Below are positions 22,131 through 60,402 of a stretch of DNA of 64,000 nucleotides, piece after piece. Source of the DNA: Betaproteobacteria bacterium Ga0077532 (GTDB taxonomy: Bacteria; Pseudomonadota; Gammaproteobacteria; Burkholderiales; Ga0077523); NCBI GenBank assembly GCA_001464895.1, contig LNEE01000016.1, forward strand, positions 62,001-126,000. The letters are read 5' to 3'. How positions within the stretch are numbered: the first letter of the stretch is position 1; the number at the start of each line of letters is the position of its first letter. The notes beneath the pieces were generated by a model that was not told the DNA's origin, did not search any database, and worked only from the letters and a program-made list of their open reading frames with translations. Both the position numbers and the translations under genes were made by a program.

Positions 22131-22146
22131 AGCAACAGTCAGACCA
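22131..22146 (-). promoter_or_regulatory. Candidate sigma54 (-24/-12) promoter of PEP-CTERM gene 21152..22072
   Basis: TGGTCTGACTGTTGCT on the minus strand; GG-N10-GC spacing exact, TTGCT perfect; 59 nt upstream of the proposed start. Confidence 0.6.
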
Positions 22147-22230
22147 TGTGCGACGACTAGTTTTTAATCAGCAACTTGCGGGCGATCGCCTGGAATATCC
22201 CTCTCGGAACGTCAAGGGACTCGACACAAG

Positions 22231-25044
22231 TCACCGGAGGCCGAGCTTGCGTGCCAGCGCGTCGACCTCGGCTGCCTCGGGGAACGTCAGCGGTTTGCTC
22301 AAGACTTCCTTCAGTTCTGCGCGCGCTTCCGCAGTCTGGCCCGCACCAGCCAGGACAGCAGCGAGATGAAACCGGATCTCCGGGTTCCTGGAATCGCGCA
22401 GTCGCGCCTCCCGCAGATGGCGCAGTCCACTTTCGATCGCCCCCGTCTTGAACAACAGCCAACCCAGCGTATCCCGCGCAGCAGCATCCTCGGGGGCAAC
22501 CTGGACGGCCTGCTCGGCGTACGTGATCGCCTTGGCCGAGTTGCCCTGCAGCGCCAGCGCATTGGCCAGATTGTTCAACACGATCGGATCCTTCGGACGG
22601 GATTTCAGCAGTGCCTCGAGGCGGCTGACCGCAGCCGGGTAGTTGCGGACCTTGAGGTAGCCTTCCGCCAGCGCGCGTGCGGAGACGACATCCCCGGGGT
22701 GCTTCGCCACCCAGGGTTCGAGAAACGCCACCGCTTGCGCCGGTGCGCCCGAGCGAATGTGGGCAGCAAAGACGCGCAGCGCGTGGTCGGTGTCTGCCGC
22801 CCTGGCAAAGGCGAGGCGATACTGGGAAACGGCATCGGGGAATCGTCCGGCTTGCAGGTGCAAGTCCCCGAGAACGCGATAACCGTCCGGTACCGAGGGG
22901 ACATCTGCGATCAGCGCGCGCGCGCGTCGCTCCGCCGCTTCGACCTGCCCCTTCGCCATCTCGATTTCGGCCAGGAGCGCCCGGGAAGGCACATGCTCGG
23001 GACGCTCGGACAGCGCCTTGTCCAGACTGTATGCAGCGGCCGCGGAGTTTCCTGCGGCGAGATACAACTGAGCGATCTCGAATTGGCGGGTTGCGTCGAA
23101 CTGGGCCACTCGCGTCATCCGCTGTAGTACGGACTGCGCACCGAGGTTATCCCCCGCCGCGAGCCGGGCTCGCACGCCCCGCGCCATCACGTCGTGGTTG
23201 TCGGCAGCGCGACTCTCGAGATCCCGCGCGAGATCGACAGCTTTCGTGGGCTCCTTCGCGGCGATGTAAGCGTCGATGAGGTCAAACGCCACGGGCAGAA
23301 ACGCAGGGTCGGCGGCGCGCGCTTTCTCCAGCCACTCCACGGACGCGGCGGTGGCGCCGCGCCGCTGCTCGAGCTTCGCCAGCTCGTGCATGGCCTGAAC
23401 GGATTTCGAGTCTGCCTTGAGGACGGCGGCGTACTTGGCGACCGCCTGCTCGAATCGACCCTCCCGGAGATCCAACTTTCCGAGATTGAGCTGAGCTGGC
23501 GCAAACCCCGGCGACGCCACCAATGCCTGTTCGAACGCCGCCCGGGCCCCATTGATATCTCCCGAGGACAGGCGCACGACGCCGAGCGTGTTCAGGTAGC
23601 CAGGATTCCCGGGTACTTTCTGGACCACCCGCTCCATGACCGCCACGGCTCGCTTCGAATCACCGGAGGCAAGGTACGCAGACGAAAGCGCCAACCCGAC
23701 CCTCGGCTTTCCGGGGTCCTTCTCGAAGGCGATCCGTAGTTGCTGGATACCGGCGTCCCGCCGACCACCGCGGAGCAGACTGACGCCGTACGCGGTCTGT
23801 ATCTCGAGGTTGTCCCCACGAAGCTGGAAAGCGCGCTCCAGCAGCTCCGCCCCGGCAAGGTTCCGGCCCTTACCCATGTAGGCCTCGCCCAGCAGGAGGA
23901 GGATCTGCGGATCGTTCGGCGCTTTCCGCTGCGCGGGTTCGAGAATCTTGATCGCGGAGACGAAATCGCGCTTTCCAAGAAAAATGGATCCGAGAAGCTT
24001 GTGCGCCGCCAGATCGCCCGGGGTCACCGTCAGGACAGCTTCGAGGTACGCGCGCGCACGCTCGTGCTCGTCGAGCCCGTGGAACACCAGGGCGGTGAGC
24101 ATCAGCAGTTCGGGCGCACGGCGTTTCAGCACTTCGGGCGGCACCGGGGAAAGCACGCGCGCGGCCGCCGAGAGCGCGGCACGGGCACCTTCGCTGTCGC
24201 CCTTCTGGCCCAGATACACCGCCCTCAGATAGTTGCCGCGCGGCTCCGCGGACTGCTCACGCGCGAAATACTCGACATCCGTCGCGGCGCCGGCGTCGTC
24301 TCGATTGCCGATCGCGAGCGAGAGGCGTGCAACGCGCGCATCCGAGTAGCCCGGCTGGAGTTCGAGGGCTCGCGAGTAAGCGTCGATAGCGCCCTTCCGA
24401 TCGCCGCTCTGCTGAGCGATCACGCCCTTCATGTACCAGACGGTCGGATCCGCAGGCGCCTCGGCAGCGGCTCGCCCCACCAATGCCAACGCCTCGGCGT
24501 GCAACCCCTTCTGCGCCGTCAGCTCCGCCAACGACAGCAGGGCTGTGACCGAACGGGGGTCGATGACGCGCGCGTCTTCGAAGTTCCGCTCGGCGGAACT
24601 CAGTTCGCCCAATGCCTTGTAGGCGTGACCGCGGAAGACGAGCAGTCTTGCCTTCGCAGGCCCCTGGAGAACATCGGGCGGCAGGCGGTCCAGCAGATCA
24701 CGGGCCTTGCCCTGCGCCAGAAACACCTCGGCCAGCAAAAGTGCGATCTCTGACTTGTCGATGCCAAGCCGAAGTGCGCGCTCCAGGGCTTCCTGCGCCT
24801 GGTCGGGTTGCTGGTTCCTGAGGAATGCCTCGCCCAGGAGAGCATGCGCCGCGAGCAGATTGGCGTCCTGCTGCAAAGCGTTCTTGAGCTGGATGATCGC
24901 GCCTGCTGTATCACCCTTTGAGAGCCGCGTGCGCGCATCTTCGTAGAAGCGGGTGGTCCGATCATCGCCGGCGGCGGACGCCTCGGCAGACAGGACAAAC
25001 ATCGTGGCGATCACCAAGCTGGCCACGGTTCTGCTGTGCGACAT
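22231..25044 (-). CDS. PEP-CTERM system TPR-repeat protein (PrsT-like), non-lipoprotein paralog
   Basis: Multi-TPR protein opening ...RLSKGDTAGAIIQLKNALQQDANLLAAHALLGEAFL, the same architecture as the two paralogs at 46-52 kb. Confidence 0.85.
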   Translation of the reverse strand: MSHSRTVASLVIATMFVLSAEASAAGDDRTTRFYEDARTRLSKGDTAGAIIQLKNALQQDANLLAAHALLGEAFLRNQQPDQAQEALERALRLGIDKSEIALLLAEVFLAQGKARDLLDRLPPDVLQGPAKARLLVFRGHAYKALGELSSAERNFEDARVIDPRSVTALLSLAELTAQKGLHAEALALVGRAAAEAPADPTVWYMKGVIAQQSGDRKGAIDAYSRALELQPGYSDARVARLSLAIGNRDDAGAATDVEYFAREQSAEPRGNYLRAVYLGQKGDSEGARAALSAAARVLSPVPPEVLKRRAPELLMLTALVFHGLDEHERARAYLEAVLTVTPGDLAAHKLLGSIFLGKRDFVSAIKILEPAQRKAPNDPQILLLLGEAYMGKGRNLAGAELLERAFQLRGDNLEIQTAYGVSLLRGGRRDAGIQQLRIAFEKDPGKPRVGLALSSAYLASGDSKRAVAVMERVVQKVPGNPGYLNTLGVVRLSSGDINGARAAFEQALVASPGFAPAQLNLGKLDLREGRFEQAVAKYAAVLKADSKSVQAMHELAKLEQRRGATAASVEWLEKARAADPAFLPVAFDLIDAYIAAKEPTKAVDLARDLESRAADNHDVMARGVRARLAAGDNLGAQSVLQRMTRVAQFDATRQFEIAQLYLAAGNSAAAAYSLDKALSERPEHVPSRALLAEIEMAKGQVEAAERRARALIADVPSVPDGYRVLGDLHLQAGRFPDAVSQYRLAFARAADTDHALRVFAAHIRSGAPAQAVAFLEPWVAKHPGDVVSARALAEGYLKVRNYPAAVSRLEALLKSRPKDPIVLNNLANALALQGNSAKAITYAEQAVQVAPEDAAARDTLGWLLFKTGAIESGLRHLREARLRDSRNPEIRFHLAAVLAGAGQTAEARAELKEVLSKPLTFPEAAEVDALARKLGLR

Positions 25045-25169
25045 TGGATGCTCTCTTTCCGTCAGGGCCCCGAACCGAATAACCGGTCGAGCACAGTCAC
25101 CCTAACGATGACAGCAGGCCCGGCGTCCGTCGGGGGCATACGCAACGAACGCAGGACCATATGCGGGTT

Positions 25170-25952
25170 CTACTGGACCTTCTTGAGGTACTCCTTCGTG
25201 AACATCTTCTCGGGGAGATCCACCAGCCGCATGTCGTCGTAGTCCATCACCGACTTCGTGTCCGTCTTGACGCCATCGATCATGACCAGACGAGTCGGTC
25301 TTATCTTGCCGCCCAGCTGCCGGTAGTTCTCGTAGCTGCACGTCTTCAGCAGGCGATCGGAAATGGAGTAGAACTCCGCCTTGTACGGGGCGCTGCCGGA
25401 TTGGCGGACCCAGTACTTCACCTTCTGATACGTGACGCTGCGATCGACGGCCGTCAGCTCCAACACGTGGTACGCCTCCTCACCGATCTTCTCGCTGCCG
25501 ACGATCTTCGCCGTGTAATCGCCACTGAAGTTCGCCCGCGCGATGTCGCCATTGGAAACCACCCCCGTCAGGCGCTGCGCCAGCGACAGTCGTACCGGCT
25601 GCGAAACGTTGGGCACGAACAGCCACAGGTCGCGACCTTTCATCAGCAGGATCTGGCCACGTTCTGCAGCGGGCTTGGTGGTCTGGACGATGGTGTTCTC
25701 GTTCCCCTTGGAATACACGCGGAACTCGCGCTCTTCGGGTGAACCACCACCTTCGACCGATCGGATCCTGACGGCGACCTCGAACCCCCGAACGGGGAAA
25801 CGAATCTCGTCGGCCTTTTGGAGTATCGCCTTCGCCTGGGCATCGTCGTCATCGTCTGCACGCACAGCTGGCGATGACGTTGCAAGGACTGCCGCCACCG
25901 CGAACAAGAACATGCGACGGCGACCTTGGAATGGAGATTGGATATAGCGCAT
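25170..25952 (-). CDS. Outer membrane lipoprotein-sorting protein-like (LolA-like fold)
   Basis: Start at MRYIQSPFQ; signal peptide MFLFAVAAVLATSSPAVRA; QAKAILQKADEIRFP...LMKGRDLWLFVPNVSQPVRLSLAQRLTGVVSNGDIARANFSGDY, typical of the LolA-like/DUF4292-type group. Confidence 0.8.
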   Translation of the reverse strand: MRYIQSPFQGRRRMFLFAVAAVLATSSPAVRADDDDDAQAKAILQKADEIRFPVRGFEVAVRIRSVEGGGSPEEREFRVYSKGNENTIVQTTKPAAERGQILLMKGRDLWLFVPNVSQPVRLSLAQRLTGVVSNGDIARANFSGDYTAKIVGSEKIGEEAYHVLELTAVDRSVTYQKVKYWVRQSGSAPYKAEFYSISDRLLKTCSYENYRQLGGKIRPTRLVMIDGVKTDTKSVMDYDDMRLVDLPEKMFTKEYLKKVQ

Positions 25953-26027
25953 GAGCCCTCGTCTTGAATCTCGTACGACCTTATCATATGCCCGCGCTCG
26001 AACCGAACCGGGCTGGGTTTCGCACAC

Positions 26028-26795
26028 ATGTCGATCGTAGTGTTGGAGCACGTGAGCAAAGAGTACCGGCTTGGGGATCACATGGTCCGGGCGCTCGACG
26101 ACGTGACGCTGTCCTTCGAAAGCGGCGTCTTCCTCGCGATCGCCGGCCCCTCTGGCAGCGGGAAATCCACTCTGTTGAACGTGATCGGCTGCATCGATAT
26201 GCCCTCGAGCGGCCGAGTCGTCATTGCCGGCCACGACATCAGCGGCCAGACGCCAGATCAACTGGCGAGCCTGCGCGCCAGGACTATCGGCTTCGTGTTC
26301 CAGACCTTCAATCTGTTTCCCGTGCTCACGGCCGAAGAGAATGTGGAGTACCCACTGCTGCAGATGGAGGAGCTCGACAAGCAAGACCGTCGGGAGCGCG
26401 TGAAGGAAATGCTCGAGCTGGTTCAGCTCGGGAAGTTCGCGAAGCATCGGCCCTCGCAGTTGAGCGGCGGTCAGCGTCAGCGCGTCGCCATCGCGCGGGC
26501 GCTCGTGACCCGACCGGAACTGGTCCTCGCGGACGAACCGACGGCGAACCTCGATCACAAGACCGGTGAAGGCATTCTTGCGCTCATGCGGGACATCAAC
26601 CGCCGCTACAAGACGACATTCATCTTCTCTACGCACGACAAGAAGGTCATCGACGCTGCCGACCGCCTCGTCGGCATCGAGGACGGCACAGTACGAATCC
26701 TCGGCGTCCGCAAGGAAGGCCAGTGGGCGATCACGAATGTGGCCCGCCGGGCAGCCTCCACGACCGACACCGAAGCAGCAGCCCTGAAACGCTGA
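26028..26795 (+). CDS. ABC transporter ATP-binding protein (LolD/MacB type)
   Basis: GPSGSGKSTLLNVIGCID (Walker A), LSGGQRQRVAIARAL signature, LVLADEPTANLD (Walker B). Confidence 0.95.
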   Translation: MSIVVLEHVSKEYRLGDHMVRALDDVTLSFESGVFLAIAGPSGSGKSTLLNVIGCIDMPSSGRVVIAGHDISGQTPDQLASLRARTIGFVFQTFNLFPVLTAEENVEYPLLQMEELDKQDRRERVKEMLELVQLGKFAKHRPSQLSGGQRQRVAIARALVTRPELVLADEPTANLDHKTGEGILALMRDINRRYKTTFIFSTHDKKVIDAADRLVGIEDGTVRILGVRKEGQWAITNVARRAASTTDTEAAALKR

Positions 26796-26807
26796 TACCG
26801 GAAAGCC

Positions 26808-28343: not shown

Positions 28344-28382
28344 GCGATACGCCAGCGACTTCGACGCGCGCAGGCGCCCGTT

Positions 28383-30924: not shown

Positions 30925-31115
30925 GCCGCTGAGAGTGTGGGCCGTCGAGCTTGGAGACGGCTACTAGTTCCTCGGAACGAGTGGACCAAGTTCCGGCCTG
31001 ATCCTCGCCCGTACCGCGCGAGTCGGCATACCCAGACGATCAACTGACGGCGAATGCAGGCATGCGAGGCGAAGGCTCGCAAGAAGGGTTACTCATACTC
31101 CTGGGACGCTGGCTC

Positions 31116-31134
31116 GAGCCGCCTCGCGGCTTTT
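31116..31134 (+). terminator. Weak terminator candidate downstream of the ABC operon
   Basis: AGCCGC-CTC-GCGGCT followed by TTT. Confidence 0.4.
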
Positions 31135-31195
31135 CTGGTCCCAATCCTTCTTCTACGCGGCAAATCGGTCTCTGCCGCTGGACACAGAGTGTCGA

Positions 31196-31237
31196 CTCAA
31201 AAATGACTGGGGGCCTGCTCTTGCGAGCAGGCCCCCA
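31196..31237 (-). terminator. Terminator downstream of the PepA-like gene
   Basis: TGGGGGCCTGCTC-N4-GAGCAGGCCCCCA perfect 13-bp stem; minus strand continues GTCATTTTTG. Confidence 0.75.
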
Positions 31238-31263: not shown

Positions 31264-32079
31264 TCAGACCTTGCGGCGACGCGCCGTGAAGCCGATACCA
31301 GCAACCGCAGCGCCGATCAGGGCCAGGCTACCCGGCTCAGGGATCTTGATGAAGAAGGCATCAGCGGAACCGTTGATGGTCTGGTTACCCACGGGCTCGA
31401 AGAAGTTGAACTGACCCTTCACGTCCAGAACGATGTGGAAGGGGTCCGGAGCAACAAAGAATGCGGTGCCGCCGGGCGCCGTCAGCGTGAACGGCGAGAA
31501 CACCAGGTCGAAGTTACCGTTGGCAGAACCCACACCGCCGGCAGCGCTGTTACCGGAACCGAACAACAGGGAAGCGGACGCCACTTGGTAGTCGTCGGCT
31601 GTTCCGCCACCGATGGTCACGGCATCGAAGCCCGTCGCGCCAAGCGCCTTCGTCGTGTCGTTGTTCGGGTCGATGAACAGTTCGAACGAGCCACCGTTGG
31701 CGATGAAAGTGAAGCCGCCACCCGCATTCGGCACGAAGTTGCCGGTCGCGGTGAACGTGGCGTACATGCCGTACTGGAGCGTGGAGAACGAAGGATTCGT
31801 CGTCAGGCCGCTGCCGACAGCGGTTGCACCATCGTCCTTGGCATAGCTAGCGGCATCCCAGTACGCCGAAGTCGAAAACGTACCGTTCAGCAGACCCGTG
31901 AAAATCTCGTTGTAGTTACCGATGATCTTGTCGACCGTGATCACGGGATTGGAGAGGGTTTCCGAACCCGGAACAGAGGACTGGTCGATGGTGAAATCGA
32001 GGAGTTCTGCAGCGTTAACGCCCGCGCTCGCAATGCCCAGGACTGCGACACTCAGCACTTTCTTCATGAATTGGTTCAT
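31264..32079 (-). CDS. PEP-CTERM protein resembling flocculation-associated PepA
   Basis: MNQFMKKVLSVAVLGIASAGVNA signal; DFTIDQSSVPGSETLSNPVITVDKIIGNYNEIFTG...LQYGMYATFTATG...GGFTFIANGGSFELFIDP; C-term IPEPGSLALIGAAVAGIGFTARRRKV. Confidence 0.85.
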   Translation of the reverse strand: MNQFMKKVLSVAVLGIASAGVNAAELLDFTIDQSSVPGSETLSNPVITVDKIIGNYNEIFTGLLNGTFSTSAYWDAASYAKDDGATAVGSGLTTNPSFSTLQYGMYATFTATGNFVPNAGGGFTFIANGGSFELFIDPNNDTTKALGATGFDAVTIGGGTADDYQVASASLLFGSGNSAAGGVGSANGNFDLVFSPFTLTAPGGTAFFVAPDPFHIVLDVKGQFNFFEPVGNQTINGSADAFFIKIPEPGSLALIGAAVAGIGFTARRRKV

Positions 32080-32150: not shown

Positions 32151-32166
32151 AGCAGCAGCCGTACCA
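32151..32166 (-). promoter_or_regulatory. Candidate sigma54 promoter of the PepA-like gene
   Basis: TGGTACGGCTGCTGCT on the minus strand; GG-N10-GC exact, 10 of 12 consensus positions (TGGCACG-N4-TTGCW); 72 nt upstream of the start. Confidence 0.65.
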
Positions 32167-32492
32167 GGATAGCAAGTCATTGTTTTTGATAATTTTATTT
32201 GTTTCCCCGGAATCACACCGAAGAGAGATGTAAGGGCGCCCGACATTGGACTTACCCTCTAGTCGAGTGCGAGATGGCCTCACACTGCCAAGCAGCAGCG
32301 AAACCATGTACGGAGGGCAGGGAACAACGCCATCGGATACCACGACGCGTTGAGCATTCGAACAGGAGGCGGCACAGGCCTTGGCATGGATATCCGTATT
32401 TGTCCGACTACACTAGCGATGTGCTTCCGCATGGGTGATTCGCACTGAGCCATCCGCCTGCTTCGACCCAGTTCATCCAGGAGAACACGTCC

Positions 32493-33202: not shown

Positions 33203-34078
33203 TCAGCTCTCGCCGCGGACATCCATTTTGAGTTTCAACTTGGCGAGCACGAGCATCAATCTCATCAATGGGTTGCTCATGCCACCAGGGCGCCAGGTAC
33301 GGACAAACTTGTTCCGGTAGGCGTCGAACTGGAATCCGTGGGGTGCCGACAGAACCCGCCCGCGGCCGAGCAGAATCTTCAGTACTTCGACGCCCGCAGC
33401 CCCGGCACACATCTGGCAGGCCATTCCTGTCGAAGGCCCCGCGCGCTCGCCGAATTTCACCCGGTCCGGATCGACGAGGTACGTGCGCTGCAACAGCGCG
33501 GGTGACAATCCGATCAGGAAATGGAGAGCCTTTTCCTTCGGAGGAAGCCCTCGCAGCTGGAAGTATTCCTCGAATGTCATCCCGCCCGGGAGGAAGTTGA
33601 CGATGGCCGTCCCCATCCCTAGCGGAGCCGCGATGACTGCGGGAATCCGCTTCTCTGCAAGCTTGCGGTAGACAAGGTCCCGGGCATCGAACGCGAAGTA
33701 GTCCAACGCATCGACATAGATGTCGACCCCTTCGAGAAACCGATCGACGTTGTCTTCTGTGACGCCATTCGGGAACGTCTGAATGGCCAACTGGGGATTG
33801 ATGTCTCGCGCCATCTCATCCAGCACATCGATCTTGGGGCGGCCGAGAGTGGATACCATTGCTCCGGCCTGGCGGTTGAAATTCGCGAGTCCGAAGGTGT
33901 CGAAATCGGCGATGTTGAATGCGCCGATCCCGAGTCGGGCGAGCGTCAGTAGGTGGACACCACCAGTCCCGCCGAGACCGGCAATTGCAACACGCTTGCG
34001 CCGGAGTGCCGCCTGCTCCTCAGCGGTAACCCAGCCCAGATTTCTTGAAAAAGCTTCGTCATAAGAGAACATCGGCAA
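33203..34078 (-). CDS. ThiF/MoeB/HesA family E1-like adenylyltransferase
   Basis: VAIAGLGGTGGVHLLTLARLGIGAFNIADFDTFGLANFNRQAGA...DVLDEMARDINP; ThiF nucleotide-binding pattern; MACQMC. Confidence 0.9.
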   Translation of the reverse strand: MPMFSYDEAFSRNLGWVTAEEQAALRRKRVAIAGLGGTGGVHLLTLARLGIGAFNIADFDTFGLANFNRQAGAMVSTLGRPKIDVLDEMARDINPQLAIQTFPNGVTEDNVDRFLEGVDIYVDALDYFAFDARDLVYRKLAEKRIPAVIAAPLGMGTAIVNFLPGGMTFEEYFQLRGLPPKEKALHFLIGLSPALLQRTYLVDPDRVKFGERAGPSTGMACQMCAGAAGVEVLKILLGRGRVLSAPHGFQFDAYRNKFVRTWRPGGMSNPLMRLMLVLAKLKLKMDVRGES

Positions 34079-34155: not shown

Positions 34156-34926
34156 TCACAGGAGCGGCGCCGCGCGATGGCGCTCTGGCGGGCACCCATC
34201 CACTCCCTGATCAACGACCACCTCGGGACTGGGAAACAGTGCCAGGCCCTGGAAAGACGCTTGACCAACGCGATCGGACAGTTCTTCTGCGTTGGCATGC
34301 AGAAGCGTCCCAGTGGTGTTGACACGCGGATTGTGACGAGGACTGCCGAGCGCCCGAAAGCCAAGAATCCGCTTGTAGAAAGCAGCATGCCGCGGCGTGA
34401 CCTCTATCAGGACATCCGTACGGTCCAACTGTCGACCGACGGAAAACGCGCTATCGAACAGCTTTCGCAGGAGATCGAGAGATCTGAACGATGGCGTCGA
34501 TGCAAAACGCACTGCCTCGCAAAGACGACAGCCTTGATCCCGAAGTCGAGCAACCTCGTTCGGGTACAGGTGCTCCGCGATCAGGCCGCGCGCCCCGTCC
34601 ATCCGGAGAGTCAATGTGGCCAGGGTCGCACCATCCAGCCGATTCTTTGCGATGAGCACAGGTGCGTCGCCGGAAACGATGTTCTCAGCGCCGCGATCGA
34701 CTGCGTATCCCTTGGGAACGTAACGATTCAGGAGAAGCGCGTTGGCGGCAACGACATCCGATATCGTTTCAGCGACACCCACATCGATCAGTGCGAATCC
34801 GAACCCCGTAGCCGCGATAGCCACAACGGGTTTGATTGCCGGCAAGTCTTGAATCTGACCATGGCTGCCAGTGTCGCCTGCGACTGACGAACCAAGAGTA
34901 CATGTCCTCGAATGAACTTGAGTCAC
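34156..34926 (-). CDS. FeeM-like long-chain N-acyl amino acid synthase (GNAT fold), copy 1
   Basis: LATLTLRMDGARGLIAEHLYPNEVARLRDQGCRLCEAVRFA...TDVLIEVTPRHAAFYKRILGFRALGSPRHNPRVNTTGTLL; start codon uncertain. Confidence 0.7.
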   Translation of the reverse strand: MTQVHSRTCTLGSSVAGDTGSHGQIQDLPAIKPVVAIAATGFGFALIDVGVAETISDVVAANALLLNRYVPKGYAVDRGAENIVSGDAPVLIAKNRLDGATLATLTLRMDGARGLIAEHLYPNEVARLRDQGCRLCEAVRFASTPSFRSLDLLRKLFDSAFSVGRQLDRTDVLIEVTPRHAAFYKRILGFRALGSPRHNPRVNTTGTLLHANAEELSDRVGQASFQGLALFPSPEVVVDQGVDGCPPERHRAAPLL

Positions 34927-35229
34927 AGCAGGTCTCCGGGTTCGGGGATATTGTTTTCCGTTGCTTCCCCGTCTTCAGCATCGAACCCTGTCCTTCAACA
35001 GGACCCCGCGGACCATCTCAGTGCCGATGCTGCTGCGCGCCCTGGAAGGGGCTGCACACAACACCGGAACTGACTGCCCAGCGTGGGATTGAAATCACTA
35101 GCAATTGCCAAGCCCGGCGAAATAAACACCAACTATCAGTGCGGTATGGAACTCAGCACGGATCGACCATACCGATTTGTCGGCCGCATGAGACTAATGC
35201 AGTCGCGGTCAAGACTCATCTTGTACCCG

Positions 35230-36036
35230 CTACCTCCCTTCTTCTAGGCGCGAACCCTCCGGAAGCTGTTCGATTCGCTTCAAACGCTCAACAACACCGC
35301 GTTCCTCCTTTTCGGAGAATGCGTACGGGTAGAGCGTCATGTTCTTCGAATTCTTGCCCCCACCGCCGTGAATTCGTATCTGCTCGGCAGCGTACTCAAG
35401 GTCCAGTCGCAAAAGAACGCCCATTGTGTTGACCCTGGGGTTCAAGCGTACTTCCCCACAGCGCTCGAATCCGAGGAGATGTTTGTAGAAGAGTGCGTGC
35501 TTCGGAGTGACCTCGATCAAGAGATCAGTGCAGTGATTGAGGTGGTAGGCGTAAATGAATGCCACGTGAAACAAGGCAGCGAGGAGGTGCTTCGAATTGA
35601 CGCCGCGGTCGACGGCGAACTTGATCATTTCGCAAAGTTGCCCGCCATTCGCGCGCAGGGCGTCCGCCTCATCGCGGTACAGCACATCCACGAGCAAAGG
35701 GATCCCGCGGTCCAACCCCACAGTCAGCGTTCCGAGAGCGCTTCCGTCGTGATAGTCAGCCGCCACAAGGGTGATTTGGTCCGGTCGCCCAACCACCTGT
35801 TGCCCAGCACCATAGCCACGCCATGAGTACATCTTGTTAAGTAGCAGCGTGGCCCCGAACCGCTTTCCTTCGGAGTCGGCAGGACGAATCCCGAACGTGC
35901 GAGCGTCCGTGCTGAAGATTGTCGCTATGTCCGAATCGGCACTGTGATCAAACGAAAGCGAGGAGAAGACATCGCTCAATTCGTCCCCGGCAGTTGTGAA
36001 CCCGATCGGCGTTTTCGAAGCCTCTCTCGTTGTCAT
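35230..36036 (-). CDS. FeeM-like long-chain N-acyl amino acid synthase (GNAT fold), copy 2
   Basis: LGTLTVGLDRGIPLLVDVLYRDEADALRANGGQLCEMIKFAVD...TDLLIEVTPKHALFYKHLLGFERCGEVRLNPRVNTMGVLL; start at MTTREASK with GGGAGA upstream. Confidence 0.75.
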   Translation of the reverse strand: MTTREASKTPIGFTTAGDELSDVFSSLSFDHSADSDIATIFSTDARTFGIRPADSEGKRFGATLLLNKMYSWRGYGAGQQVVGRPDQITLVAADYHDGSALGTLTVGLDRGIPLLVDVLYRDEADALRANGGQLCEMIKFAVDRGVNSKHLLAALFHVAFIYAYHLNHCTDLLIEVTPKHALFYKHLLGFERCGEVRLNPRVNTMGVLLRLDLEYAAEQIRIHGGGGKNSKNMTLYPYAFSEKEERGVVERLKRIEQLPEGSRLEEGR

Positions 36037-36392
36037 TTCGTATGTCTCCCCGTTCTCCCACATGGGCCGACGTCGCGACGCCCCATCATGGCCGATGTTG
36101 CAGTCCCCAACAAACCGGGCAAAGATCCCTCAGCAACATGGAAACTCCAGCAATGCGCTGATTGGACGCGAGCAGCTTTCTTGCCTGCGGACGAGATCGG
36201 CTCACGGCGAGCCGGCATAGCGAATGCAAGAACTGTCGCCTAGGGGAAACGAAGAGGGTTTCCAAACGAAACCACCCGACGCACTCGACATGGACAAACA
36301 GGTTAAGAGCCTTCGTTGCGGGGACGAAGGACTCTCAAGACTTGACACTCCGGCAGGTTTGGGTTTCCAAACCGCTCAAGCCGGTCCAGCGA

Positions 36393-48940: not shown

Positions 48941-48956
48941 TGCATACGCCCGGCCA
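48941..48956 (-). promoter_or_regulatory. Candidate sigma54 promoter of prsT paralog 2
   Basis: TGGCCGGGCGTATGCA on the minus strand; GG-N10-GC exact; 70 nt upstream of the start. Confidence 0.55.
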
Positions 48957-51865: not shown

Positions 51866-51933
51866 GAACGTCTCGGTGCTTTCCGGGTACGGGCGCTTGG
51901 TCATGGGTCGCGTCTTCGAATCCGACAGTGATA

Positions 51934-51949
51934 TGCAGCAGGCCTGCCT
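51934..51949 (-). promoter_or_regulatory. Candidate sigma54 promoter of prsT paralog 3
   Basis: AGGCAGGCCTGCTGCA on the minus strand; GG-N10-GC exact but first T replaced by A; 69 nt upstream of the start. Confidence 0.45.
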
Positions 51950-53303
51950 AGGACCGCAAGCCATACTTCGACATGAGGTCGTACAGCGTCGGACGACTGA
52001 CCCCAAGGAGCTCCGCAGCCTTGCTGATGTTGCCGTTCACCCTGCCGAGAACACGCACGATCGCCTCGCGCTCAGCCTCGTCGCGCGCACGTCGGAGGTT
52101 GAACATTTCGGGCTCTGGCGCCACCGCCTGAAGTCCGAAGTCCTCGACTCTCAGGGTTGAGCCCTCCGCCATGATCACGGCGCGTTTCGTGCGGTTCTCC
52201 AGCTCACGGACATTGCCAGGCCACTCGTAGGCTTCGATCGCATCGACAGCATCCGGCATCATCGTGAGCGTACCGGCCTTCTGCTCATCCGCGAACTTGC
52301 GAACGAATGCGTGCGCCAGCAGGCTTGCGTCGCCCTTCCGCCGTCGGAGCGGGGGAATCTCCAGAACGATTTCAGCGAGACGGTAGAAGAGATCCTCGCG
52401 AAACTTTCCGTTGGCGATCAGATTCTTCAGGTCCTGGTGCGTCGCGCAGACGATCCTGACGTCCACCGGAATCTCTTCGCGCCCACCGATCCGCTCGATC
52501 ACCCGCTCTTGCAGGAAGCGCAACAACTTCGCCTGCAGCGAGAGCGGCAGGTCGCCCGTCTCGTCGAGGAAAAGGGTGCCGCCGTTGGCAACTTCGATCT
52601 TGCCCGGCGTTTGTTTCGCGGCGCCAGTGAACGCCCCCTTTTCGTAGCCGAACAGCTCGCTCTCGAGAAGATTCTCTGGAATGGCAGCGCAATTGATGGC
52701 CACGAATCGATTGGCCTTGCGTGGCGAATGCGAATGAAGTGCGCGCGCCAGAACTTCCTTCCCAGTACCTGACTCTCCGAGCAAGAGAATGGTGGCATTG
52801 GTGCTCGCCACTTTCTCGATCGTCCTGCAGAGCCGCTGCATCTCGGGATCCCGGGAGATGATCCCCGAGACACCCGGCGCCGACTGGGCGTTCTGCAGAC
52901 GCCGGTTCTCCGCTTGCAGTTCATACAACCGGAACGCGCGCTCGATGATCAGAGAGAGGACTTCTGGCTGGAACGGCTTCTCGCAAAAGTCGTAGGCGCC
53001 CAGCGCAATGGAACGTACGGCATTGTCGCGATCGTGCTGTCCCGTGATGACGATCACCTTGGAATCCGGCGACAGGGACATCATCTCCTGGAGCAGCTTG
53101 AACCCTGTCGTCGTGTCATCCGGGTGCGGCGGCAGCCCGAGGTCCATGGTGATCACGGCAGGCTCGAATCTTCGCAACTGTGCGATGGCCGAATCGCGAT
53201 CATCGGCGACGAGGACCTCGTATTGGTCGAGCGCCCACTGCATCTGCTTCTGCAGCGCGGGATCGTCTTCGACTACCAGCAATGGCTTGCGCTTTTCTGT
53301 CAT
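51948..53303 (-). CDS. prsR: PEP-CTERM-box sigma54-dependent response regulator PrsR
   Basis: Receiver domain (LLVVEDDPALQKQM...ITMDLGLPP), AAA+ with GESGTGKEVLARALH and GAFTGA, C-terminal Fis-type HTH (ISKAAELLGVSRPTLYDLM). Confidence 0.93.
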   Translation of the reverse strand: MTEKRKPLLVVEDDPALQKQMQWALDQYEVLVADDRDSAIAQLRRFEPAVITMDLGLPPHPDDTTTGFKLLQEMMSLSPDSKVIVITGQHDRDNAVRSIALGAYDFCEKPFQPEVLSLIIERAFRLYELQAENRRLQNAQSAPGVSGIISRDPEMQRLCRTIEKVASTNATILLLGESGTGKEVLARALHSHSPRKANRFVAINCAAIPENLLESELFGYEKGAFTGAAKQTPGKIEVANGGTLFLDETGDLPLSLQAKLLRFLQERVIERIGGREEIPVDVRIVCATHQDLKNLIANGKFREDLFYRLAEIVLEIPPLRRRKGDASLLAHAFVRKFADEQKAGTLTMMPDAVDAIEAYEWPGNVRELENRTKRAVIMAEGSTLRVEDFGLQAVAPEPEMFNLRRARDEAEREAIVRVLGRVNGNISKAAELLGVSRPTLYDLMSKYGLRS

Positions 53304-55414
53304 GCGGCTTCCGCGCGGCTCTCGTCCGATGCTATGTCCCTGGAACGTGCGGGCAGGATGACCTTCATCCGAGTGCCCACCCCAACCGTGCTTTCCACGG
53401 CAATGCGGCCTCCGAGTTCGCTCACGTACTGTTGGCTCTCGTAGGCGCCTATCCCCATGCCCGTCGACTTGGTCGACCGAAATGGCTTGAACAGCTGCTC
53501 ACGGATGAACTCGCTCGACATGCCCTTTCCTTTGTCTTCCACCTCGGCCACGGCGTGCAACCCTTCCGTCGCAATTCGGACGATCACTGAACCTCGCCCC
53601 TCCATCGCATCGAACGCGTTCTGTACGAGATGGCCGAGCACGCGCTCGATTCTCTCCTCGTGCGCCATCGCCCAGACGCTGCTCGACGCCTCCAACACGA
53701 CTTCCCTCCCCTGGCGAGCGTAGGAAGTCCTGATCCGAGCCATCACCGCGCCGATGTCCACGGGTGTGGGACTGCCGATGGGAGCCGCTCCGGAACGCAG
53801 CTGCAGAAGCAACCGATTCATGCGATCCACCACGTGCTCGATGGTGGATCGCATGTCCTTCTGAAACTCGGGATTCGCGCTGTGGCGCTCGGCGTTCTTC
53901 AGCATCAGGGACAACTGTGCCACGAGATTCTTGAGGTCATGCACGACGAATGCCGACATGCGGTTGAAGGCACTGAATTGCTGCGCTTCGACCAAGGCCT
54001 CGGTTGCCCTTACCTGCCCGATGACAGTAGCGGCCTGCCGAGCAGCCGTCTTGAGGAGATCCAGCACTTCCCAGTCGACCTCGACCTTTGCCCTCGGCAG
54101 CTGCAAGACCACGAATCCGCCCAGCCCATCACCCTCCGGCATCGGGATGACAAGCCATGCGTCCGACCGCTCCTGCAGCCAGAGCGGCAGTTCCAGGTCC
54201 GGATACTTGTCCGGCCTCTCGCGGAACTCCTCGAGATCGATCACCCACCAGGTCGACGCGAGGAAACGCACGAGCGATGCCTCGGCCGTAATCGTGCTGG
54301 CCAGAGCCGGCGTGTTCCAATGCCCCGCCGGTCGATAGACGCCATCGCCATCACGCCACCATTGCAGGCCTGCTGGACTCTCGACGAGATCGGCAAGCGC
54401 CTGGATGGACCTTTCCACGATGCTCTCCGCGTTGGAGGTCGTTGCGAGCATCTTCGTGAATCGGAGCCACTCCTCCCGATAGTCGTACCGATACGAGAAG
54501 AAGTTCTTGTTGATGAAGACGCGTAGGCGCGCCCGTACGGATCCGGAAAAGAACAAGAGCGCCAGGACCAAAAGCGCGATGAAGAGAAAGACTGCCTGGA
54601 TGGCTCGGCCCCAGTCACCACCGAAGATCCGGACGTAGTAGCCGGCACCAGCAACAGCCAGCATGTAGAGCCCGGATAGCAGCAGGGCCGTGGAGCCGAA
54701 CACGATGTTTCGCGAAACGGCGACATCGATGGTCCAGTTCCGATTCCGCGCTGTGGCGACGAGGATCAGGGGAATCGCGAGGGCGTGCACCGCCCCGCGG
54801 ACGGTCCAGACCTGCTCGTCGACGCCGCGCAACAGAAGCGCATCGGAGAACATGAAGAGGTCGTAGCCGAGCATCGCTCCGAGCCCGAGCACCAATGGCT
54901 TGATACCCCATCGAGCCGCTTCCTTGGTCCCTCGATACAGCTGCTCACAGAGGCTGAGGCCGATCACGGCTGCGATCGCCGAAACACCAAAGCTCGGCAC
55001 GAGACGCTGCAAGGGCCCGGCGACACTCGCAAACAGACCGACACCGCCGGCGACAGTCGCAAACCAATGCCCCAGGACGAGGGAAGATGCCAGGACGAAC
55101 CGGCTGCGGGTAGACAGGGCGAGGGTCAAGCCAGGAACCTGGAGGGACTGCAGCAGCGCGAGGACGAAGCCGAACCACGCGCCGAATCGCAGTCCGTCGG
55201 CCAACAGGTGAAACAGCCAGGATGCATCGCTCGGCGTGAGTGCCACGACGACGCCGGACACCTGCCACAGGAACGAAGACAGTGCCGCGAACAGCAGTAC
55301 GCCGGAACGGCCTGCCCAGCCGCGCCGGATACCGATCTGGATGGCGAGCACGGCGTAGGCCGCGGCTCCGAATCCGTAGCTGGCAACGGCGATTGCGGCG
55401 GTGGAGGCCGTCAT
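53300..55414 (-). CDS. prsK: PEP-CTERM system membrane histidine kinase PrsK
   Basis: Multiple N-terminal TM helices, GAF-like region, FVVHDLKNLVAQLSLMLKNAERH (H-box), NAFDAMEGRG (N-box), GKGMSSEFI...STKSTGMGIGAYESQQYV; overlaps prsR. Confidence 0.93.
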   Translation of the reverse strand: MTASTAAIAVASYGFGAAAYAVLAIQIGIRRGWAGRSGVLLFAALSSFLWQVSGVVVALTPSDASWLFHLLADGLRFGAWFGFVLALLQSLQVPGLTLALSTRSRFVLASSLVLGHWFATVAGGVGLFASVAGPLQRLVPSFGVSAIAAVIGLSLCEQLYRGTKEAARWGIKPLVLGLGAMLGYDLFMFSDALLLRGVDEQVWTVRGAVHALAIPLILVATARNRNWTIDVAVSRNIVFGSTALLLSGLYMLAVAGAGYYVRIFGGDWGRAIQAVFLFIALLVLALLFFSGSVRARLRVFINKNFFSYRYDYREEWLRFTKMLATTSNAESIVERSIQALADLVESPAGLQWWRDGDGVYRPAGHWNTPALASTITAEASLVRFLASTWWVIDLEEFRERPDKYPDLELPLWLQERSDAWLVIPMPEGDGLGGFVVLQLPRAKVEVDWEVLDLLKTAARQAATVIGQVRATEALVEAQQFSAFNRMSAFVVHDLKNLVAQLSLMLKNAERHSANPEFQKDMRSTIEHVVDRMNRLLLQLRSGAAPIGSPTPVDIGAVMARIRTSYARQGREVVLEASSSVWAMAHEERIERVLGHLVQNAFDAMEGRGSVIVRIATEGLHAVAEVEDKGKGMSSEFIREQLFKPFRSTKSTGMGIGAYESQQYVSELGGRIAVESTVGVGTRMKVILPARSRDIASDESRAEAA

Positions 55415-55609
55415 TGGAGGCGAGAGTTCCTGTGGGCCCTGAGTTGTTTCGCGGGATCCCTCCGCACCGAGCAGGCGCGATGAGCGATCACCACAAGCGG
55501 TGAATCCCGGACATCCATGGCTTTGGGCAGACCGAGGACCTCACTGCACAACCAAGAATCGTGCTCGGCGAAGCCCGGGACTTCAGGAGGGCTCCAGCGA
55601 CGCGTTTGC

Positions 55610-56995
55610 CTAGCGGGCGCCGTCGCCCGACAGCACGACTCTCACGGTGCCCAACAGAATCACGATGTCCAGCAGGATGGTGTGATTCTTCACGTAATAG
55701 AGGTCGTACTGCAACTTGCGAACAGCATCTTCCACTGACGCCCCGTAGCTGTACTTGACCTGAGCCCAGCCGGTGAGCCCGGGCTTCACCGTATGCCGAG
55801 CCCCATAGAAAGGAACCTGCTCCGTGAGCTGAGAAACGAAGAAGGGCCGCTCGGGTCGGGGACCGACGAAGCTCATCTCCCCCTTCAGGACGTTGAAGAT
55901 CTGGGGAAGCTCATCGATCCGCGTACGTCGCATGAATCGCCCGAACTGGGTCACCCGGGGATCCGCTGTGCTCGCCCAGCGGGGAACCCCATCCTTCTCG
56001 GCGTCGGCACGCATGCTCCGAAACTTGAGCAACATGAAAGATCGTCCACCCAGACCCACGCGCTCCTGGCGGAAGATGATCGGACGCCCGCTTTCCAGAA
56101 AGATCACCAGTGCGGCGACCAGCATGATGGGAGCAGCGAACACGAGGAGGATCGCCGCTGCCACCACATCGAGCGCGCGCTTGACGAACCGACGTGACCA
56201 GTTCTGCCGGAAGCCGTCGCCGTAGATCAGCCAACTTGCCTTGAGCGAATCCACCGGGACCTCCCCCGTGACGCGCTCGAAGAAGCCGGACAGGTCGGTG
56301 ATTCTGACGCCCCTCAGCCGACAGGTCAGGAGTTGGCTCACCGGGAGCAGGCCACCCCGCTGCTCCTGCAGCGCCACCACAACCTCGTTGACTTCCAGCT
56401 TCCGGATGGTGTCCTCGAGGGATGCGGCCGACCGAATCACCCGATCGGGGGATACGGCGCAGACGCTGCTGGCACTGATGGGGAAGAACCCGATCAGATT
56501 GACGCCCGACTTGGAAGCCCCCTGAAGAGCCCTCTCGACGGCGAGCGCCTCGGGGCCTGTGCCGAGCACCAGCATCCTGTGCGTAAGCCAGTCCATCTCT
56601 ACGCCGAAAACCAGGACGAGCCTGACCAAGAGAAGACCTGCCGCTGAAAGCAGGAGGGCCTCGGGAAGCGCCGCACGGTATTCGGCACCATCTGGAAACA
56701 TCGCGAAAACGCCGTACACCAGCAGGCTACCGGCCGCCAGACTTCCCAGAATTCTCAGGGCGAACGCGGTCGCAGAGACGCTGCGGTCCATTCGATGAAG
56801 CCTGAAGGCGCCAAGGCAAAGGATCTGACCGAGAGCGAAGATACCGACGGCCGCAGCAACAACGAACGCATCCTGTTGAGAAAAAGTGGAATGTCCGGCC
56901 ACCGCGCTCATGAAGGACGCACAGAAGACCAGGCAGGCAAGCGCCAACTCCAATACGGCCACCAGGGGAACCCTCTGATTGAAAAGCAGAACCAT
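55610..56995 (-). CDS. TIGR03013-type PEP-CTERM/XrtA system undecaprenyl-phosphate sugar transferase
   Basis: N-terminal TM helices, then KRALDVVAAAILLVFAAPIMLVAALVIFLESGRPIIFRQERVGLGGRSFMLLKFRSMRADAEKDG...RRTRIDELPQIFNVLKGEMSFVGPRPERP. Confidence 0.92.
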   Translation of the reverse strand: MVLLFNQRVPLVAVLELALACLVFCASFMSAVAGHSTFSQQDAFVVAAAVGIFALGQILCLGAFRLHRMDRSVSATAFALRILGSLAAGSLLVYGVFAMFPDGAEYRAALPEALLLSAAGLLLVRLVLVFGVEMDWLTHRMLVLGTGPEALAVERALQGASKSGVNLIGFFPISASSVCAVSPDRVIRSAASLEDTIRKLEVNEVVVALQEQRGGLLPVSQLLTCRLRGVRITDLSGFFERVTGEVPVDSLKASWLIYGDGFRQNWSRRFVKRALDVVAAAILLVFAAPIMLVAALVIFLESGRPIIFRQERVGLGGRSFMLLKFRSMRADAEKDGVPRWASTADPRVTQFGRFMRRTRIDELPQIFNVLKGEMSFVGPRPERPFFVSQLTEQVPFYGARHTVKPGLTGWAQVKYSYGASVEDAVRKLQYDLYYVKNHTILLDIVILLGTVRVVLSGDGAR

Positions 56996-57062
56996 GCCGT
57001 CACACCTCGCTCAGCTCCAGCGAGTGACTGCCCGCTGGAATGTCTCCGTGGGCCCATAAGCG

Positions 57063-57078
57063 AGCACAGTGCCCGCCA
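57063..57078 (-). promoter_or_regulatory. Candidate sigma54 promoter of the TIGR03013-type sugar transferase
   Basis: TGGCGGGCACTGTGCT on the minus strand; GG-N10-GC exact; 68 nt upstream of the start. Confidence 0.55.
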
Positions 57079-57375
57079 GCGGATGCGAAGCCAGATGAAG
57101 CGATGACAGAACGAGGCCGGTCGACAGGCTCACGAACCTGGACAGAGGATTGGCGCCACCCCCGCGCGACAAACCCTCGGAAGTCACCGGATTCCAGGAG
57201 AATTCCTCGATCATCAGGCCAAAGAGAATCCGGCTAGCGGTTGGCGCTCACGCCATCCCGATCCCATTCGCTCCACGCCGCGCGACGACCGAGACCGTGG
57301 CGAGGACTTCCTGAGTTGGGCACTTGAGGACGGAATTGGGCGCGTCCGCAACGCCCCCAGAAGCGACCGACTGCA

Positions 57376-58500
57376 TCATTCCCGTCTGAGGGGATCCGTG
57401 GCTTCCGGACGGCGTCGCGCGCTCCGCAGCCCCTTCATGGCCGCGTGGTAGATCAACAGCCAGGGGGGCATTCGCAGCCAGACCGCGCGTGCCGCAAGAA
57501 TGCGATGGGAAAGGGGCGGGCGCCGTGCGGGACGGCCATCGGGGTGAGGTGGAAACAGCGCGCGATGAACGAGAGTGTCCATTGCACGCTGGACGATCGT
57601 ACCGGGTGCAAACTCATCAATGGCACGGGACAACGCTGGCGACACGGGCGTACCCAACCAAGCCTGCGCATACCGAAGTGCGTACCAGAGTGGCCGGCCG
57701 AGGCCATGTATCGCGGCATGCTTCGGGAGCGCGTCATCGAGAGCCTCACCTGCATGGACTCGAAGCAGTGCGTCGACGTCCACCAACTCCCTGAGACGAT
57801 CGACGCAGTCCGAGTCCTGAAACAGATGAACTGCGACGTGAAGCACCTGATCTGCGGGTGACAGTGCGTGCCATGGTCCACCCGGAATCGGAACGGCTGC
57901 TTCGAGGAGCTTGGCCGCATCGGGCTTGAGGCGCCCGGTCACGGGAAGAATCGTGTGATGCACATCCAGCTGAAGGAGAAATCGCGGATGCCGCATCGGC
58001 GGGAGCTCGTGAGCCCACGCACGGTAGTAATGCTGATCGTACGCGTCAGGCTTCTCGCTCAGCCAACCCGCCCGGTGGAGCCGGGATTCCACATCGTCGA
58101 GGACACCACGGCTCACCATCAGGTCGACGTCGTCGAACATCCGTCCGACAGAAGACGGGATGCCCTGGGCTACGTACGCGGCGCCTTTGAGAAGCACGAG
58201 CTTTTCCGGCATGGCATCGAGGGCACGAGCCAGGCCGCGCAGGAGGTACCGCGCCATCTGGGCGCGGTGCAAGTAGAAGGCATGCGCTCCCGCCAGGTGC
58301 CTCCGGGGCGCCTCAGGGACCGCTCCGAGGACGCCAGCGTGCGCGAGGCGCCCGTGTACCGTGCCGAGCAGCTCCGCAACGCCGGCGACTCGCACGACGA
58401 GATCCCAGTCGTCGCTGCTCAGACTCTTGGCTGAGTCAGGCTCGACTATGAGCTGAATGAGCGTCTGAAGGTAGGGAGGCGGCGGGGCAACGATTGTCAT
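57376..58500 (-). CDS. Uncharacterised nucleotidyltransferase family protein (NTP_transf_5-like)
   Basis: LVLLKGAAYVAQGIPSSVGRMFDDVDLMVSRGVLDDVESRLHRAGW...QLDVHHTILP; start at MTIVAPPPP. Confidence 0.8.
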   Translation of the reverse strand: MTIVAPPPPYLQTLIQLIVEPDSAKSLSSDDWDLVVRVAGVAELLGTVHGRLAHAGVLGAVPEAPRRHLAGAHAFYLHRAQMARYLLRGLARALDAMPEKLVLLKGAAYVAQGIPSSVGRMFDDVDLMVSRGVLDDVESRLHRAGWLSEKPDAYDQHYYRAWAHELPPMRHPRFLLQLDVHHTILPVTGRLKPDAAKLLEAAVPIPGGPWHALSPADQVLHVAVHLFQDSDCVDRLRELVDVDALLRVHAGEALDDALPKHAAIHGLGRPLWYALRYAQAWLGTPVSPALSRAIDEFAPGTIVQRAMDTLVHRALFPPHPDGRPARRPPLSHRILAARAVWLRMPPWLLIYHAAMKGLRSARRRPEATDPLRRE

Positions 58501-58544
58501 GCCCCATTCTATCGGCGCGGCCAACAAAGACCGTACACCACTCG

Positions 58545-59489
58545 TCATTCGCCAGGCGACACGCGACCCGCACGGATATCGTCGACCAGCGTCTCGATGG
58601 CTCGAATGGCCTGATCAAGGTCGCCGAAGACCAGGCGCCTGCACACACTACTGCGGACGAGTGCATTGATCGAGTCAAACGCAGCCGCCCCAAGAAGTTC
58701 GTAGTTGAAGGAGTTCACGGTCAACTTGCTGAACGCTTGCGCGGGATCGATTGCCTCGACGGCGAGCGCAGCTCCCGCCTGGAACTTTGGGAAAAGCACG
58801 ACACCTGGCCGAGCCGGAACGCCGATGGCTGCGACGCTCGCCGCGTCGGCCCCCATATGGGCGACATCCCCTTTCCGGGTCCCACGGAACACCGGACCCA
58901 ACGCCACACCCGGAAAGCGGGCGCGAATCACGTCGATCGAAGCGTTCTTGAGCGCAATCGGTCTGGGCAGAGGGTGCAGCAACCCCGACTCGAGGGATAG
59001 GACCCCAAACTCGTCGGATAGCAGACGGAAGCGGCCGCTGCCCACCATTCCAGCAGTCAACGTGCTTTTTCCGGAACCGGGAACTGCCGGCATGACGATA
59101 CCCACGCCATCCCGCTCGACGGTCCCGGAATGCAACAGAAGATAGTGGGTGCAGCGCTCGGTGAAGGCGAAGTTCAAGCCCCATTCCAGAAGAGGCAAAT
59201 GAACAGCGGCCGGAAAGGGTGCGAATGGCGAGGCACCATCCACCACGAACTCCACCTGCGGCCTGAGGTGGCGCCTCAGGCCCCGCACCCTGAGCACGCT
59301 GGCGGTCACGTCGCAGAAGCCCGTGGAGGGCTCCGTTGGAAAGCGCCCGTAGACAGCTGCAAGCGGCGCAACGATCTCGTTGACGTCGGACCGCACTCTG
59401 AACCTTGCCGCCCCTAGACGAAGGACCAACCCCTCCTCTCCGAGGACTCTGGCGATATCAGACGGGGAAGTTTCGGCCAGGGTTGGCAT
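58545..59489 (-). CDS. HprK-related kinase A (TIGR04352-like)
   Basis: HSGTVERDGVGIVMPAVPGSGKSTLTAGMV (Walker A), LLSDEFGVLSLESG; HPr kinase-like P-loop. Confidence 0.88.
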   Translation of the reverse strand: MPTLAETSPSDIARVLGEEGLVLRLGAARFRVRSDVNEIVAPLAAVYGRFPTEPSTGFCDVTASVLRVRGLRRHLRPQVEFVVDGASPFAPFPAAVHLPLLEWGLNFAFTERCTHYLLLHSGTVERDGVGIVMPAVPGSGKSTLTAGMVGSGRFRLLSDEFGVLSLESGLLHPLPRPIALKNASIDVIRARFPGVALGPVFRGTRKGDVAHMGADAASVAAIGVPARPGVVLFPKFQAGAALAVEAIDPAQAFSKLTVNSFNYELLGAAAFDSINALVRSSVCRRLVFGDLDQAIRAIETLVDDIRAGRVSPGE

Positions 59490-59492
59490 GCT

Positions 59493-59780
59493 TCAACTTG
59501 CTCTGATCAAGCCAAGCTCTTCAAGACCGACCAGAAGCTTCGACAACTCACGAAGCTCTTCAGAGGTGGTATCGGCACCAATCAGAGCGCGTTCGAGTTC
59601 AAGTAAAGACACTCTGCGTTGTCCGATCAATTCAAGGACATCAGCCGCGTGGGCAGAAGCAAAGTGCGTCTCCCACGAGACCGAATTGAAAATCATGCAG
59701 TGATCGCCGAATCTGGCGATCCGTTGACCACCCGGGTCCTCACGCTCCCAGAAGCTCTTCACCGGAATGACCGAAACCAC
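59493..59780 (-). CDS. HPr-rel-A system PqqD family protein (TIGR04353-like)
   Basis: HCMIFNSVSWETHFASAHAADVLELIGQRRVSLLELERALIG...ELSKLLVGLEELGLIRAS; 4 bp from the HprK-related gene. Confidence 0.85.
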   Translation of the reverse strand: MVSVIPVKSFWEREDPGGQRIARFGDHCMIFNSVSWETHFASAHAADVLELIGQRRVSLLELERALIGADTTSEELRELSKLLVGLEELGLIRAS

Positions 59781-59830
59781 TCAGGAAACGCCAATGGCGC
59801 AGCTGGCGTCCTGCATCTCAGGACATTGGA

Positions 59831-60334
59831 TCAGGGCTTGAAAGACGTGTAGCAGGACTTCGTGATCTTTCCACCGGGAATTCCGGTCTCCCATTGGAAG
59901 CCCACAATGTTGCCGGAGTTGTCGACGAGAACGAGTGCTTGCTTGAAATGGCCGGTTCTCGTAACGGTCAAGTTCGCGGCGCCCACCGAGTAAAAAGTCG
60001 GCGTCGGAGCGCTCGTGTTAGAGACAAATTTCAAATAGACACTTGCATGCCCTGGGAACGGTTCGAGGAAGAAGCCGTCGAGCACTGCGTTGGTGGACGT
60101 ATCCTTCAGCTGCAACAATTCCACTTGTCGCCGTAGCCAAATATCGGGATCGGGCGCATACGCGCCACTTGTCACTGGGTCCGGAAGAATCTCCGGAGTC
60201 CCCTGCTTGCCAGCATTCACGAAGCAGGAGGTGCTCGAAGCGGCAAGTACGGAACCAGGATGAACTGTCATGATGAATGGCGCAGCTGCACTGCCACTCA
60301 GGAACCTGCGTCGGGATTTCTTTTCATCACTCAT
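59831..60334 (-). CDS. Hypothetical exported protein with twin-arginine-like signal
   Basis: MSDEKKSRRRFLSGSAAAPFIMTVHPGSVLAAS..., SRRRFL Tat-like motif; first gene of the HPr-rel-A operon. Confidence 0.7.
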   Translation of the reverse strand: MSDEKKSRRRFLSGSAAAPFIMTVHPGSVLAASSTSCFVNAGKQGTPEILPDPVTSGAYAPDPDIWLRRQVELLQLKDTSTNAVLDGFFLEPFPGHASVYLKFVSNTSAPTPTFYSVGAANLTVTRTGHFKQALVLVDNSGNIVGFQWETGIPGGKITKSCYTSFKP

Positions 60335-60386
60335 GTACTTGGGCCCCGGGACAAACATCAACAGCACTAGGATACCGCTGACTGCG

Positions 60387-60402
60387 AGCAATTCGGATAC
60401 CA
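60387..60402 (-). promoter_or_regulatory. Candidate sigma54 promoter of the HPr-rel-A operon
   Basis: TGGTATCCGAATTGCT on the minus strand; GG-N10-GC exact, TTGCT perfect; 53 nt upstream of the proposed start at 60334. Confidence 0.5.

Follow-up and report, generated by a model that had tools for sequence, protein, structure and literature searches.

In a 64,000-nucleotide (nt) stretch of the genome of Betaproteobacteria bacterium Ga0077532 (contig LNEE01000016.1, positions 62,001 to 126,000; hereafter, the window), six minus-strand 16-mers of the form GG-N10-GC had been predicted to be sigma54 promoters, all of them activated by the response regulator PrsR, which would in this way coordinate matrix proteins, PrsT paralogs, a priming glycosyltransferase and the HPr-rel-A operon. 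The sequence comparisons described here indicated that three of these sites, found upstream of XDP1 (22146), pepA (32166) and the HPr-rel-A operon (60402), are very probably sigma54 promoters of the PrsK/PrsR regulon with a probable bend site for integration host factor (IHF), and that coincidence is, as regards PrsR, the most likely source of the GG-N10-GC matches assigned to epsB2 (57078), prsTa (51949) and prsTb (48956). In wider terms, and with good confidence, we propose a PrsK/PrsR regulon with a fixed three-part promoter grammar, in which the parts are spaced near whole helical turns and the HPr-rel-A operon is a conserved target outside the PEP-CTERM genes. The decisive part, the PrsR box, had been overlooked in the original prediction, as had the prior description of the system by Haft et al. 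(2006; PMC1569441).

Three probable promoters with a PrsR box

Haft et al. described a cis-element in front of 99 out of 167 PEP-CTERM genes of proteobacteria, in which motif 1 (17 nt, with TTTACA at its end) is separated by a spacer with a mean of 62.8 nt (standard deviation, SD, 10.6) from a sigma54 motif 2, itself placed about 71 nt (SD 38.5) from the start. PrsK, PrsR and PrsT were named in the same study by phylogenetic profile, with PrsR as the presumed binder of motif 1. In the present genome, in which work beyond the window comprised pattern searches and selected loci, the comparison of the upstream regions of 61 PEP-CTERM genes yielded a 17-bp imperfect inverted repeat, TGTCGRN5YTKACR, which corresponds to motif 1 and is here termed the PrsR box. 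Simpler versions of this motif were rejected: the exact inverted repeat TGTAAAN5TTTACA showed no excess, and TTTACA alone gave three matches, at chance level. A motif 1 with a TTTACA-like hexamer at its end was present at 22226, 32245 and 60491 and absent for 57078, 51949 and 48956, and treating the six sites as a single group was abandoned, the PrsR box dividing them three and three. The features of the three promoters are as follows.

22210..22226, minus strand: PrsR box (motif 1) TGTCGAGTCCCTTGACG of the XDP1 promoter, 63 nt before the -24/-12 element; conserved in the nearest relative, G190
22166..22178, minus strand: putative IHF site CAAGTTGCTGATT of XDP1, a perfect match to YAANNNNYTGATW, 31 nt after the PrsR box and 19 nt before -24, in canonical position
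22131..22146, minus strand: sigma54 -24/-12 element TGGTCTGACTGTTGCT of XDP1; conserved in G190
32229..32245, minus strand: PrsR box TGTCGGGCGCCCTTACA of the pepA promoter, spacer 62 nt; orthologs in G193, G186 and G187
32173..32185, minus strand: putative IHF site AAACAATGACTTG of pepA, one mismatch, 43 nt after the box and 6 nt before -24
32151..32166, minus strand: sigma54 -24/-12 element TGGTACGGCTGCTGCT of pepA
60475..60491, minus strand: PrsR box TGTCGACTCCATTTACA of the HPr-rel-A operon, spacer 72 nt; conserved in 7/7 same-genus loci
60419..60431, minus strand: putative IHF site TATCAACGCGTTA of the HPr-rel-A operon, a perfect match to WATCARNNNNTTR, 43 nt after the box and 16 nt before -24
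60387..60402, minus strand: sigma54 -24/-12 element TGGTATCCGAATTGCT of the HPr-rel-A operon, in the best composite of the window; conserved in 7/7 same-genus loci

All six 16-mers were found as written, at the coordinates and on the strand predicted, each in a single copy in the window. The distances to the start codons that accompanied them (72, 59, 68, 69, 70 and 53 nt for 32166, 22146, 57078, 51949, 48956 and 60402) were reproduced with the starts chosen in the prediction, the prsTa value requiring the second in-frame ATG and not the upstream ATG at 51904. As sigma54 motifs alone, the six are unremarkable, because GG-N10-GC occurs 1116 times on both strands of the window and the consensus TGGCACGN4TTGCW, with up to three mismatches, was found 89 times versus 102 expected from shuffles; this consensus, showing no enrichment in the window, was discarded as a stand-alone test for real promoters. 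When the 1116 matches were scored with a -24/-12 matrix, the ranks were 1 for 22146, 3 for 32166 and 4 for 60402, followed by 24 for 48956, 35 for 57078 and 47 for 51949. The matrices were trained on 27 sites from other genera.

The separation was wider for the composite, in which a PrsR box is followed 45-75 nt downstream by a -24/-12 element. Twelve distinct occurrences of this pattern were counted in 4.9 Mb, versus 2 in a reversed-pattern control; eight of the 12 precede PEP-CTERM genes, one precedes the HPr-rel-A operon and three lie elsewhere. The three places that fall in the window are 22146, 32166 and 60402. Their composite scores were also the highest in the window (27.9, 31.1 and 35.9 bits, respectively), the next distinct site reaching 15.7, with 57078, 48956 and 51949 at ranks 29, 57 and 82. 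In the genome, the composite model gave at least 15 bits in 10 of 61 PEP-CTERM upstream regions, against 0.2 expected from shuffles. Two composite matches (C32:61198 and C40:25398) were set aside as chance, both being inside coding sequence with poor -24/-12 scores. Another composite, of about 21 bits, was observed at C39:46871 (L081), and a close relative shows the pattern too, in a similar sequence (G190:C14:9492).

The three spacers of the window (63, 62 and 72 nt) fit the published 62.8 ± 10.6 nt, and the distances from motif 2 to the start codons, 59, 72 and 53 nt as counted in the original prediction, are within the published range. Given an XDP1 start at 22072, all three elements are intergenic, in keeping with the published element, which lies outside coding regions. 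The alignment of orthologous upstream regions gave a divided result for the six sites: conservation was observed for XDP1 in G190, for pepA in three of the four loci tested in other genomes and for the HPr-rel-A operon in all seven same-genus loci, while in relatives none of the 15 upstream regions for epsB2 and none of the 16 for prsT contained the composite. The PepA relatives in G193, G186 and G187 carried composites of 31-37 bits, and no composite was found for the fourth (L233), a partial match. Altogether, these comparisons support functional promoters at three of the six sites.

The arrangement of the parts was also examined in 101 distinct composite sites, a number that is not a frequency, since the presence of prs genes, of PEP-CTERM genes or of the motif had guided the choice of loci. 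Their spacers cluster at 52, 63, 74, 85, 96 and 106 nt, with a period of about 10.7 bp (Rayleigh p about 1e-22 at 10.75-11 bp, and about 1e-20 without similar spacers), and a reversed-sequence control gave two matches. The IHF consensus was found within one mismatch in 66 of the 101 spacers versus 17.6 in shuffles, and perfectly in 14 versus 1.1. The positions of these matches are mostly fixed, at 6, 16 or 27 nt before -24 in forward orientation and at 19 or 29 nt in reverse, and the box-to-IHF distances also step by about 10.5. The distances listed above for the three promoters fit this general geometry, and the match between the PrsR box and the promoter is a probable IHF site. One ihfA-type gene over the family cut-off and one copy of rpoN, located outside the PrsK/PrsR locus, were found in the genome.

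The data show a three-part module upstream of each gene, with its order, spacing and conservation: a 17-bp repeat, taken as the site of a PrsR dimer, then a probable IHF bend and last the -24/-12 element. With the parts spaced near whole helical turns, phosphorylated PrsR would face the sigma54-RNA polymerase across the IHF bend and would open the promoter through its GAFTGA AAA+ domain, and transcription of these genes would depend on rpoN and prsR. The PrsR protein of the locus scored 727 bits against TIGR02915 (cut-off 502.6), and no second copy in the genome passes this threshold; it comprises a receiver, an AAA+ domain with GAFTGA at residue 223 and a Fis-type helix-turn-helix.

The composite also tracks prsR across 150 genomes of the order, in which the strict pattern was found in 33 of 38 genomes with prsR versus 11 of 112 without it (Fisher 1e-18). 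Detection of prsR was based on the scores of ten candidates per genome, so that some genomes counted without the gene may have it. Some points weigh against the proposed regulon and its grammar. The pepA IHF match carries one mismatch; the seed of the PrsR box was first read in this genome, which limits the independence of the training set; the composite occurs in 11 genomes with no detected prsR, some of them incomplete; and the p-values are optimistic, given that the genomes are related.

The HPr-rel-A operon and the rest of the locus

The locus contains PrsK, PrsR, three PrsT paralogs, EpsB2, PepA, XDP1 and the HPr-rel-A operon. The genes that bear on the promoters described above are listed below.

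59831..60334, minus strand: lead gene of the HPr-rel-A operon, a 167-aa protein with a twin-arginine-like signal (SRRRFLSGSAAAPFIMTV) and no Pfam or NCBIfam family match
59493..59780, minus strand: HPr-rel-A PqqD-like chaperone (TIGR04353)
58545..59489, minus strand: HprK-related kinase A (TIGR04352, over the cut-off)
57376..58500, minus strand: nucleotidyltransferase (PF14907)
53300..55414, minus strand: PrsK histidine kinase (TIGR02916)
51948..53303, minus strand: PrsR response regulator with Walker A, the putative activator
31264..32079, minus strand: PepA, flocculation-associated PEP-CTERM protein (NF033554)
22231..25044, minus strand: third PrsT paralog (TIGR02917), directly upstream of XDP1, its end abutting the PrsR box
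21152..22072, minus strand: XDP1 exosortase-dependent surface protein, PEP-CTERM (NF041927)

Membership of the HPr-rel-A system is indicated by the joint presence of HprK_rel_A, the nucleotidyltransferase and the PqqD-like chaperone, the latter scoring 33.2 bits, just under its 35-bit cut-off. In a sample of 19 HPr-rel-A operons drawn evenly over the class, that of the window included, the pair of motif 1 and sigma54 element was found before the lead gene in 17. In most cases, the lead gene encodes a protein of 150-240 aa with a twin-arginine-like signal. These lead proteins (L163-L181 and that of the window) are variable, with a common SRRRL-type signal and often a CTxSGxxSGNLS motif. The assignment of this operon to PrsR, already part of the original prediction, is probable: its PrsR box lies as far from the promoter as was published, and the site is conserved in relatives. 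The operon, not previously known as a member of the PrsK/PrsR regulon, would be a conserved target of it.

Other features of the genome and the window may be recorded here. PEP-CTERM matches in the genome number 62, and of its 60 or so PEP-CTERM genes about 50 are without a PrsR element. The third PrsT paralog is distant from prsKR. Two neighbouring genes for FeeM-type N-acyl amino acid synthases (PF21926) are found at 34156-36063 on the minus strand, and a ThiF-like gene at 33203-34072.

The remaining sites and alternative explanations

The sites assigned to epsB2, prsTa and prsTb, together with an overlapping register upstream of epsB2, are as follows.

57063..57078, minus strand: predicted epsB2 site, unsupported as a PrsR promoter; no PrsR box within 300 nt, register not conserved
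57059..57074, minus strand: overlapping GG-N10-GC register GGGCACTGTGCTCGCT, 4 nt from the predicted one
51934..51949, minus strand: predicted prsTa site, rejected
48941..48956, minus strand: predicted prsTb site, unsupported; G190 has no ortholog for comparison

That PrsR would activate all six sites, and with them the PrsT paralogs and EpsB2, is very improbable. The six share the pattern WGGN9TGCW at 53-72 nt from a plausible start, and this pattern, which was defined on the six themselves, was found 45-80 nt from the start upstream of none of 41 other called genes. However, no PrsR box or IHF match was found within reach of 57078, 51949 and 48956, and relatives lack the composite upstream of epsB2 and prsT, as given above. 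Moreover, the prsTa site, which starts within the prsR stop codon, is lost in G190, and in Aquincola tertiaricarbonis RN12 prsT showed no RpoN1 dependence (Xia 2023; PMC9850573). The control of matrix proteins and of the HPr-rel-A operon was therefore retained from the original prediction, and that of the PrsT paralogs and the priming glycosyltransferase was not. A tentative alternative for epsB2 is a sigma54 promoter of its own at 57074-57059, served by an activator other than PrsR, which is possible, though doubtful: five of seven same-genus loci share the GGGCAY and CTCGCT boxes, between which the sequence varies, but the boxes are absent in two genomes, the -24/-12 score is weak (rank 107 of 1116), no activator site was found, and the exopolysaccharide genes of Aquincola are seemingly RpoN1-independent.

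The opposite extreme, in which all six sites are chance matches in DNA of 64% G+C where GG-N10-GC is common, would agree with the unenriched sigma54 consensus, but three of the sites have composite scores, phasing and conservation that make it extremely improbable. It is also improbable that these three are real sigma54 promoters whose TGTCGR-TTKACR box is bound by another activator of the NtrC family. Other NtrC-like regulators exist in the genome, with five further near-full-length matches, and the 11 genomes with the composite and no detected prsR would be explained; yet the composite follows prsR over the 150 genomes, as in the phylogenetic profile of Haft et al., and prsR is inside the same locus. 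Regulation of XDP1, pepA and the HPr-rel-A operon by PrsR is the preferred reading.

Comparison with known systems

The PrsK/PrsR system, its RpoN dependence and a mapped pepA start are already known. In common with the element of Haft et al., the promoters of the window have motif 1, the spacer range, the sigma54 motif 2, the distance to the start and PrsR as presumed binder; in contrast to that description, motif 1 here has the form TGTCGRN5YTKACR, spacer lengths fall at steps of one helical turn, and the HPr-rel-A operon, which is not a PEP-CTERM gene, is a probable conserved target. The text of the 2006 paper, as searched, names neither an IHF site nor helical phasing. In Aquincola, a -24/-12 start was mapped for pepA, whose promoter (TGGCAC and CTGCTT) is RpoN1-dependent and for which an enhancer was noted (PMC9850573); the window gene at 31264-32079 matches the same PepA family model, NF033554. 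IHF and helical spacing are unmentioned in that paper's text, as searched. The limited literature searched contained no mention of HPr-rel-A operons as conserved targets, of the helical phasing or of the IHF element, nor the names HPr-rel-A and HprK-related kinase.

The 2006 consensus would become a precise, searchable promoter grammar, by which true PrsR targets can be told apart from the many GG-N10-GC matches of G+C-rich genomes, and which predicts about ten PrsR-controlled PEP-CTERM genes among some 60 in this genome. Moreover, the uncharacterised HPr-rel-A operon would be tied to the control of the biofilm matrix in PEP-CTERM bacteria. If this is true, PrsKR controls, beside the sorted matrix proteins, a second secreted-protein pathway led by a variable protein with a twin-arginine signal.

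At IHF-assisted sigma54 promoters of the NtrC/NifA type, the parts follow the order of activator box, IHF bend and -24/-12 element. The order is alike in the promoters of the window, in which the activator would be PrsR, with a box sequence of its own, and IHF would have the role suggested by its matches in the spacers.

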